DNA from: Sanguibacter sp. HDW7
Lineage (GTDB): Bacteria > Actinomycetota > Actinomycetes > Actinomycetales > Cellulomonadaceae
Direction: 5' to 3'
DNA: 64,000 nucleotides
Assembly (NCBI RefSeq): GCF_011300875.1
Contig: NZ_CP049862.1
Location: 2,108,001 to 2,172,000 of the forward strand
Positions within the stretch are counted from its first letter, which is position 1. Every line of letters starts with the position of its first letter. The position numbers and the translations under genes are program-made. The notes beneath the pieces were generated by a model. The model made no database searches. It worked only from the letters and a program-made list of their open reading frames with translations, and was not told the origin of the DNA. Positions 55,149 to 57,395 of the stretch are shown piece by piece.

Positions 55149-55982
55149 TCAGCCCCTGCGACCCGCCGCGATCCGCTGCCGCGCCGCCTCGTAGAGCACG
55201 GCTGTCGTGGCGTTCGCCGCGTTGAGCGAGCTCGCGGCCCCCGACATGGGGATGCTCACCGTGAGGTCGCACAGCTCGCGCCACGCGTGCGAGAGGCCCG
55301 ACGTCTCGTTGCCGACGAGCAGGAGCGTCGGACCCGTGAGATCGGCGTCGAACACGTCGACGTCGCCGCGCTCGTCCGTACCGACAAGCTTCACCGGGAC
55401 GCCGCCCACCCGTGCCTGCTCGACCCACGCCATGACCTCGGCCGGACCCGGCACGCGGACCGCGGGGAGGGCGAAGAGGCTGCCCGTCGTCGCACGCACC
55501 GCGCGCGGGTCGTAGACGTCGGCCGCATGGCCCGAGACGATGACACCGTGCGCGCCGAACGCGTCGGCCGAGCGGATGATGCTCCCGATGTTCCCCGGTG
55601 TCGTCGGGCGATCGAACATCACGCCCAGGAGGTCCGGGCCGACGGAGATCCGGCCGAGGTCGTCGTCCGGCAGGCCGACCACCGCGACGAGCTCGGGCAC
55701 GTCGGCGGTCTTCTCCCCCAGCTCTGCGAGGAGCTCGGGCGCCATCGCCACCTGGGTCGCGCCGCTCGACGCGAGCAGGTCGCGCGCCCAGCCTGACAGG
55801 GGCCGGCTCTCGTCGTGGAGCAGGGCATGGACGGACCATCCGTGCTCGACGGCCAGCGTGATGGGGCGGACGCCCTGGACGATCATCTCGCCGAGCTGGT
55901 TGCGCTTGCGGCGGTTGGTGAGCAGCGCCTCCCACAGCTGGAACGTCGCGTTGCGGGTCGTGATCCGCTGGGTCGCGGGCAT
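55149..55982 (-). CDS. TrmH/SpoU family RNA methyltransferase
   Basis: A 277-aa SPOUT-class 2'-O-ribose methyltransferase. The N-terminal ~125 residues are a substrate-binding part ([20 protein letters not shown]). The knot domain has the three motifs: [38 protein letters not shown], and [20 protein letters not shown]. The RNA target is not clear. ATG 55982 has GGAGGA four bases upstream. Confidence 0.9.
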
Positions 55983-56059
55983 GTGGTCCTCCACGGTGAG
56001 CCGGTCGGCGCGGCCCCAGGCTCGCGACGTCTCGCGCAGCAACGCTACCGCCACGCACG

Positions 56060-56096
56060 CGAAAGGCCCGGTCATCGATGATGACCGGGCCTTTCG
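56060..56096 (-). terminator. terminator of tRNA-Glu copy 1
   Basis: CGAAAGGCCCGGTCAT, loop CGATG, exact complement: 16-bp stem. Almost identical to the terminator of the second tRNA-Glu, which lacks one A and the pairing T. Confidence 0.9.
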
Positions 56097-56101
56097 AGAC
56101 G

Positions 56102-56174
56102 TACCCCCGACGGGATTTGAACCCGTGTTACCGCCGTGAGAGGGCGGCGTCCTAGGCCGCTAGACGACGGGGGC
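56102..56174 (-). tRNA. tRNA-Glu(CTC), copy 1
   Basis: 73-base cloverleaf: acceptor GCCCCCG pairs with CGGGGGT (G-U end pair), anticodon arm CCGCC-CTCTCAC-GGCGG giving CTC, T-arm with TTCAAAT. Identical to copy 2 at 57154-57226. TAATGT at 56226-56231 (minus) is a likely -10 box, and a GCCCC-TTCG-GGGGC hairpin lies in the leader. Confidence 0.97.
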
Positions 56175-56323
56175 CGGACGGTGCTCGAGCCGCCCCCGAA
56201 GGGGCCGCTCTCTGCGCCGTCGAGAACATTACACAAAGGGCGGGCGCGCGCGCCAGTTGGACCGACGTGGCCGTCGTCACACCCGGGCTCCGTCGCGTGG
56301 GGTGCCGTCCGGGGGCGGACCCG

Positions 56324-56947
56324 TCAGACCGTGACGTTCGGCGGCGGCGTGGATGTGCCCTCGCGAGCACCGGGCGTGGAGCCGTCCGCCGGCGGTTCGC
56401 CACCCCCGGCCGCTGCACGGAACCTACGGTTGCCGACATGTCCGACGACGACGAGCACCGTCCCGACGGCCGAGAGGGCGAACAGGACGGCGATCCCCGC
56501 GAACACGAGGTCGAAGACCGCCATCGACGCTTCCCACGCGTCACGACCGTCCTCCTGGGAGTGCGACGGGTCCGCGGGGTCGTACGCGACATCGATGGGG
56601 CTGCCGACCGCGAGCCCGCACCACTCGGAGTTCTCGTAGCCCCACCCGCTGGAAGCTGTGCGTTCGGTTCCGGCACCGTCGACGAACGCGTACGTGAGCA
56701 GGCAGCCCTCCCCGGCGGGATCGTGGACGAGAGCCCCCTCGCCCGCGTCGCGCGTGCCGCGCTCGAGCGACGTGACGACGCCGGTGACCCGGGTCCACGA
56801 CTCGGAGGGCAGCGCCGTCACGGACATCCCGAAGAACCCCCACAGCGGCAGGGCGACTCCGAGCAGCGGTACCGCGAGCGTCCCGGGGACGAGCGCGAGC
56901 AGGTAGCGCCAGAGCAGGCGGCGGCGGCGCGGCGGCTTCGACTGCAT
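56324..56947 (-). CDS. DUF3592-type membrane protein
   Basis: A 207-aa membrane protein. Start ATG 56947 (GAGG six bases upstream). A basic N-terminus (PPRRRRLLWRY) leads into a first helix (LLALVPGTLAVPLLGVALPLWGFF), then an extracytoplasmic domain of ~80 residues with two Cys residues (GEGCLLTYAFVDGAG, NSEWCGLAVGSPIDVAYDP), then a second helix (LVFAGIAVLFALSAVGTVLV) and a Pro/Gly tail. The VGSPIDVAYDPADPSHS motif is typical of DUF3592. Function unknown. It lies alone between two identical tRNA-Glu genes. Confidence 0.75.
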   Translation of the reverse strand: MQSKPPRRRRLLWRYLLALVPGTLAVPLLGVALPLWGFFGMSVTALPSESWTRVTGVVTSLERGTRDAGEGALVHDPAGEGCLLTYAFVDGAGTERTASSGWGYENSEWCGLAVGSPIDVAYDPADPSHSQEDGRDAWEASMAVFDLVFAGIAVLFALSAVGTVLVVVGHVGNRRFRAAAGGGEPPADGSTPGAREGTSTPPPNVTV

Positions 56948-57113
56948 GGAGGACCTCACGTTCTGCAGGCCCGTAGACCCTGCGTCGGCGTCGATCGCCC
57001 CGTTCCCGGAGACGTGCCGACACGCTAGCAGAACCGACATCTCGGATGCAGCGATCTGTCCGAGGACAGGAGCGCGTCACGCCCACCCCTCGCCCTCCTC
57101 CCGTCCGGCACGA

Positions 57114-57148
57114 CGAAGGCCCGGTCATCGATGATGACCGGGCCTTCG
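57114..57148 (-). terminator. terminator of tRNA-Glu copy 2
   Basis: CGAAGGCCCGGTCAT, loop CGATG, exact complement: 15-bp stem. Confidence 0.9.
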
Positions 57149-57153
57149 AGACG

Positions 57154-57226
57154 TACCCCCGACGGGATTTGAACCCGTGTTACCGCCGTGAGAGGGCGGC
57201 GTCCTAGGCCGCTAGACGACGGGGGC
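57154..57226 (-). tRNA. tRNA-Glu(CTC), copy 2
   Basis: Identical in all 73 bases to the copy at 56102-56174, with the same anticodon CTC. It lies 97 bases downstream of tRNA-Gln and is probably co-transcribed with it. Confidence 0.97.
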
Positions 57227-57323
57227 AGGACGTGTCAGGAACGAGCGCGAACACTCCACCTGACGGAACAAGATCCTCGGAATCTTGCGGCTGCGAGAGC
57301 CGCGTCGATCCGAAGATCTTGAG

Positions 57324-57395
57324 CTGGGGTACCAGGACTCGAACCTAGAATGACGGTACCAGAAACCGTTGTGTTGCCAATTACACCATACCCCA
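57324..57395 (-). tRNA. tRNA-Gln(CTG)
   Basis: 72-base cloverleaf: acceptor TGGGGTA pairs with TACCCCA, anticodon arm ACGGT-TTCTGGT-ACCGT giving CTG, T-loop TTCGAGT, discriminator G. Confidence 0.97.

Follow-up and report, generated by a model that had tools for sequence, protein, structure and literature searches.

The two tRNA-Glu(CTC) genes that bracket a lone DUF3592 gene in Sanguibacter sp. HDW7 very probably descend from an old tandem pair whose copies have been kept alike by gene conversion; a DUF3592 gene and a SpoU gene were gained in one lineage, and the terminator stem of copy 2 probably later gained a base pair. The window analyzed is a 64,000-nt stretch of contig NZ_CP049862.1 (positions 2,108,001 to 2,172,000), whose relevant features are collected in Table 1. 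Comparison with relatives establishes the age of the pair, the restriction of the intervening gene to one lineage, concerted evolution of the copies, and replacement of one terminator. The locus is ordinary, the phenomenon is already known, and the case matters little by itself; it is useful as a small, clear-cut case in which a tRNA and its terminator are spread as one block by gene conversion.

Table 1. Features of the HDW7 tRNA-Glu locus, in minus-strand order (window positions).
Feature	Position	Strand	Basis
tRNA-Gln(CTG), first gene of the conserved tRNA cluster	57323..57395	-	ARAGORN and Rfam
tRNA-Glu(CTC) copy 1, nearest tRNA-Gln	57153..57226	-	ARAGORN and Rfam
Terminator-like hairpin of copy 1, 16 pairs, AAGG/CCTT (probably the older state)	57114..57148	-	Inverted-repeat and folding analysis
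DUF3592 gene, 207 aa; ORF reaches 57040, preferred start 56947	56324..56947	-	Pfam PF12158
TGTGTAATGTT, promoter-like motif upstream of copy 2	56225..56235	-	Alignment; same in HDW7, G003, G001, and G004
tRNA-Glu(CTC) copy 2, same sequence as copy 1	56101..56174	-	ARAGORN and Rfam
Terminator-like hairpin of copy 2, 17 pairs, AAAGG/CCTTT (probably derived, pair gained)	56060..56096	-	Inverted-repeat and folding analysis
SpoU/TrmH-type RNA methyltransferase gene, 3' of the copy-2 hairpin	55149..55983	-	Pfam, synteny

Covariance-model and ARAGORN calls, together with conserved synteny, assign both genes to the tRNA-Glu(CTC) family at the gltX-leuCD locus. Each is 74 nt long, and sequence comparison found no differences between them; the few bases linking tRNA to hairpin are likewise the same in both copies. 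The duplicated tRNA-Glu(CTC)-hairpin block described in the initial annotation was thus recovered by ARAGORN, Rfam, and inverted-repeat analysis, with identical tRNAs and linkers.

The comparison covered 60 loci of the order plus 80 named loci retrieved by way of GltX. The gltX–(HAD)–tRNA-Gln–tRNA-Glu–IclR–leuCD arrangement is conserved across the order: in most loci tRNA-Gln(CTG) adjoins tRNA-Glu(CTC), the two generally flanked by gltX on one side and by an IclR-type regulator with leuCD on the other, and synteny keeps tRNA-Gln upstream of tRNA-Glu in nearly all relatives compared. Two tRNA-Glu(CTC) copies, 19 to 3171 bp apart, are present in 47 of 120 distinct loci (a count that may include, under a few of the 80 named loci, strains already present among our G-numbered genomes), and almost all of these have no DUF3592 gene between the copies. 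Within the genus, the two copies of Sanguibacter hominis (G001) and of G004 are separated by 170 and 268 bp that contain no gene; in Flavimobilis rhizosphaerae (G003), whose GltX is 95% identical to that of HDW7, an 899-bp interval with a gene for a 187-aa product separates the two copies; and G002 and G005, which are more distant from HDW7, have one copy each. On a LeuC+IclR tree, HDW7+G003 and G001+G004 form sister pairs, all two-copy, nested in a 26-genome clade with 20 two-copy members, and copy number is strongly clustered (5 changes, versus 16.6 in shuffles). The two-copy sister lineage and the five-change pattern argue that the tRNA pair is older than the arrival of the DUF3592 gene, and the many pairs that lack this gene argue that its insertion did not create the duplication. 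On sequence comparison, then, the duplication is an old tandem pair rather than a product of DUF3592 insertion.

The ancestral state would be a tandem tRNA-Glu(CTC) pair, lying in the conserved region that runs from gltX through tRNA-Gln and tRNA-Glu to leuCD; in this genus the pair would have been split into two transcription units, each with a strong hairpin terminator; copy 2 may be driven by its own promoter, TGTGTAATGTT, as suggested by the invariance of this motif in four genomes. The spacer between the tRNA-Glu genes of G004 contains a run of ∼17 G, and five Bifidobacterium loci (L146, L161, L163, L164, and L167) have two tRNA-Glu(CTC) copies 239 to 873 bp apart that precede tRNA-Gln, an order different from that of Micrococcales; by eye, the Bifidobacterium intervals look noncoding and partly repetitive.

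The tRNA-Glu copies evolve in concert. Copies within a genome differ by a mean of 0.31 nt, compared with 5.48 nt between copy 1 and the copy 2 of other genomes, so that paralogs are closer within genomes than orthologs are between them; none of 2000 shuffles, which ignore relatedness, gave a within-genome value as low. Lineage-specific changes common to both copies point in the same direction: both copies of HDW7, G003, G001, and G004 have a G-C acceptor-stem pair where most others have A-T. These values favor the earlier proposal of a tandem duplication kept identical by gene conversion. The same 74-mer is found in all eight copies of these four genomes, and identity of the HDW7 tRNAs is thus not in itself a recent event. 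As with other tandem tRNA genes, and with rRNA operons, that evolve in concert by gene conversion, for example the E. coli rrn operons (PMC8022953), the copies are near-identical within a genome and divergent between genomes; unlike those cases, the block common to the HDW7 copies also spans the terminator, making a unit of ∼115 bp. Our search of the literature on tRNA concerted evolution found nothing on this locus.

The terminators are more informative than the tRNAs. Within a genome, they are alike between copies in HDW7, G003, and G017; likeness of the 45 nt downstream of copies 1 and 2 is 0.89 in HDW7 and 0.80 in G003, but 0.52 in G001 and 0.47 in G004. Copy-2 terminators are alike in all four of these genomes (GGCCCGGTCATC..GATGACCGGGCC), whereas a copy-1 terminator of the copy-2 type is found only in HDW7 and G003, that of G001 and G004 being unrelated. 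Since this type occurs at copy 1 only in the HDW7/G003 lineage, the most likely event there is a transfer of copy-2 sequence to copy 1; in alignment, HDW7 copy 1 plus its terminator matches G001 copy 2 at 92%. In the common ancestor of HDW7 and F. rhizosphaerae, the copy-2 block, from tRNA to terminator, would have overwritten the copy-1 terminator or founded copy 1 anew. Outside the block, the flanks are still orthologous by position (for HDW7 copy 1, the closest is G003 copy 1, at 0.93). HDW7 copy 2 has gtctcga in common with both copy 1s, unlike G003 copy 2, a weak hint of a possible second, later exchange between the HDW7 copies.

While we infer that the block moved by gene conversion, the sequences are also compatible with re-duplication, and an unlikely alternative is a recent segmental tandem duplication in the HDW7/F. 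rhizosphaerae lineage, in which copy 1 was lost and then remade using the copy-2 block, the same event bringing in the DUF3592 gene. This would explain why, from the tRNA through the terminator, HDW7 copy 1 resembles copy 2 rather than copy 1 of its relatives. However, a duplicated segment should carry its flanks, and the likeness ends within a few bases of the tRNA and the hairpin; moreover, the sister lineage (G001+G004) already had a tandem pair.

The HDW7 gene between the copies belongs to Pfam family DUF3592 (PF12158; 28.6 bits against a gathering cutoff of 25.3). Its product is predicted to be a small membrane protein, modeled with low confidence (mean pLDDT 59 over 207 aa) as a helix, a beta domain, and a second helix. 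At the matching place, strand, and start, the 187-aa gene of G003 is 30% identical to it over 135 residues but scores 15.5 bits, below the same Pfam cutoff. The first residue of the G003 protein aligns with Met32 of the HDW7 ORF, so the HDW7 gene likely starts at 56947 rather than at 57040; with this correction, the lone DUF3592 gene reported between the copies stands. A DUF3592 protein match on the opposite strand of G003 contains four stops and was rejected as spurious in favor of the 187-aa ORF, which lies on the tRNA strand and is the likely relative. Flanking genes of HDW7 and G003 are 85 to 100% identical, which, set against 30% for the gene itself, argues that the DUF3592 gene is either fast evolving or was gained twice.

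A DUF3592 gene or relative lies between the copies only in HDW7 and G003; of the five other members of the genus, four have none at this site. The TrmH gene that follows copy 2 is similarly confined to HDW7 and G003, the other members of the genus having no TrmH gene there. Under the explanation we favor, the DUF3592 and SpoU methyltransferase genes would have been gained on either side of copy 2 in the ancestor that acquired the new copy-1 terminator. A single gain of the DUF3592 gene in the HDW7/G003 lineage is simpler than two; independent gain of two similar genes retains a small probability. Each of the six genomes of the genus contains a DUF3592 match somewhere, which makes a local source of the gene possible. 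Two such matches (G001 contig C4 and G004 contig C1) lie ∼5.5 kb from matches to a second tRNA-Glu type, a proximity that may be only the shared synteny of close relatives. In the portions of the searched literature available to us, DUF3592 was mentioned only in the characterization of a metallo-beta-lactamase.

Could the interval between the copies be a recurrent landing site for short cargo that is exchanged or expelled by homologous recombination between the identical tRNA units, without an integrase? The cargo cases in its favor are the DUF3592 gene of HDW7, a glycoside-hydrolase-like and transporter-like pair in G020, and ∼700 bp in G017, but we regard this as very unlikely. In G020 (L058), the tRNA-Glu(CTC) copies are 3.2 kb apart, and inspection by eye revealed glycoside-hydrolase-like and MFS-transporter-like ORFs between them.

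Site-specific integration at the tRNA, with the tRNA-Glu blocks as attL and attR and the DUF3592 gene as the remnant of an element, is highly improbable; the initial annotation had raised a remnant of integration as one possibility. As in tRNA-integrated genomic islands, a lineage-specific gene adjoins a tRNA, here between direct repeats, and the site lacks that gene in most of the genus. In HDW7, however, there is neither an integrase nor a partial att repeat, and the repeats are older than the gene. Attachment-site repeats generally span just a portion of the tRNA; both HDW7 copies are full length, with no truncated att copy. Pfam searches found no integrase among the genes neighboring the HDW7 tRNA-Glu copies and no phage genes between the repeats, where the only family-assigned gene is DUF3592, and neither the DUF3592 nor the TrmH gene matched PHROG or PADLOC, which led us to reject defense or phage cargo. 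The upstream motif of copy 2 is common to relatives without cargo, and the cargo between copies differs among lineages. Pairs without cargo occur in the same genus (G001 and G004) and widely beyond it, including nearly all of the 47 two-copy genomes. A site with one tRNA-Glu and no DUF3592 gene had been suggested as the sign of insertion; the cargo-less G001 and G004 keep two tRNA-Glu genes, and the one-copy genomes are the more distant G002 and G005. Conversely, finding two tRNA-Glu genes and the DUF3592 gene in all relatives had been named as grounds for refutation; the former are widespread and the latter is not. The locus thus serves as a warning that direct tRNA repeats flanking a lone gene need not mean integration.

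Both HDW7 hairpins are perfectly paired, with 100% complementary arms of 17 nt at copy 2 (56060-56076/56080-56096) and 16 nt at copy 1 (57114-57129/57133-57148), each around a 3-nt loop. Their folding energies are −33.2 and −32.3 kcal/mol (z of −7.3 and −7.6 versus shuffles), and each is a stable GC-rich hairpin downstream of its gene, as expected of an intrinsic terminator. No U tract follows either stem; CUUCGUCG and CUUUCGCG come next. Accordingly, a simple terminator scan called neither HDW7 hairpin, because there is no real U tract beyond two or three stem T's. They resemble the intrinsic terminators of high-GC actinobacteria in being strong, GC-rich, low-energy hairpins right after a tRNA, and differ from them in lacking a real U tract. 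Among relatives, the last tRNA-Glu is followed by a 3' hairpin with z below −2 in 104 of 119 cases. We infer that the HDW7 hairpins would end transcription of each tRNA-Glu unit.

The hairpin core, GGCCCGGTC..GACCGGGCC, occurs at only two sites in the 3.35-Mb HDW7 genome, both of them here, and the search for the same terminator elsewhere that had been suggested at the outset yielded no others. The shared hairpin sequence is thus neither chance nor a genome-wide element, and a genome-wide terminator family was rejected for the same reason. Least probable of all is that the hairpins match by convergence or as a generic terminator rather than through descent or conversion: GGCCCGG..CCGGGCC cores are common after the last tRNA-Glu copy in the order (41 of 119), but 27 nt of stem and loop are the same in the two HDW7 hairpins and absent elsewhere in that genome, and in G001 and G004 other sequences serve equally well as the copy-1 terminator.

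The stems of copies 1 and 2 do differ, as first described, by a single A/T pair (AAGG/CCTT versus AAAGG/CCTTT), but the direction proposed then, a loss, is probably wrong. In G003, the copy-2 stem is AAGG/CCTT and the copy-1 stem is of equal length with a G-T pair; the shorter stem at both copies argues that the 17-pair stem at 56060 is derived, an A and its T having been gained. With polarity taken from this one close relative, the change was probably a gain in HDW7 copy 2, not a loss in copy 1, and would postdate the divergence from F. rhizosphaerae. There are two simplest explanations. In one, template switching at the palindrome would have carried an indel from one arm to the other; this is described as a way of creating and maintaining RNA hairpin pairing (PMC8794818) and could act in one step. 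In the other, selection to keep the arms paired would have favored an ordinary compensatory mutation. Such hairpins usually show paired changes in both arms, and this one illustrates how a hairpin can change pair by pair and stay perfectly paired. In G017 (L083), a second case of paired change, the stems of the two copies differ by an A/T to G/C swap, and the similarity between copies runs past the terminator into downstream sequence.
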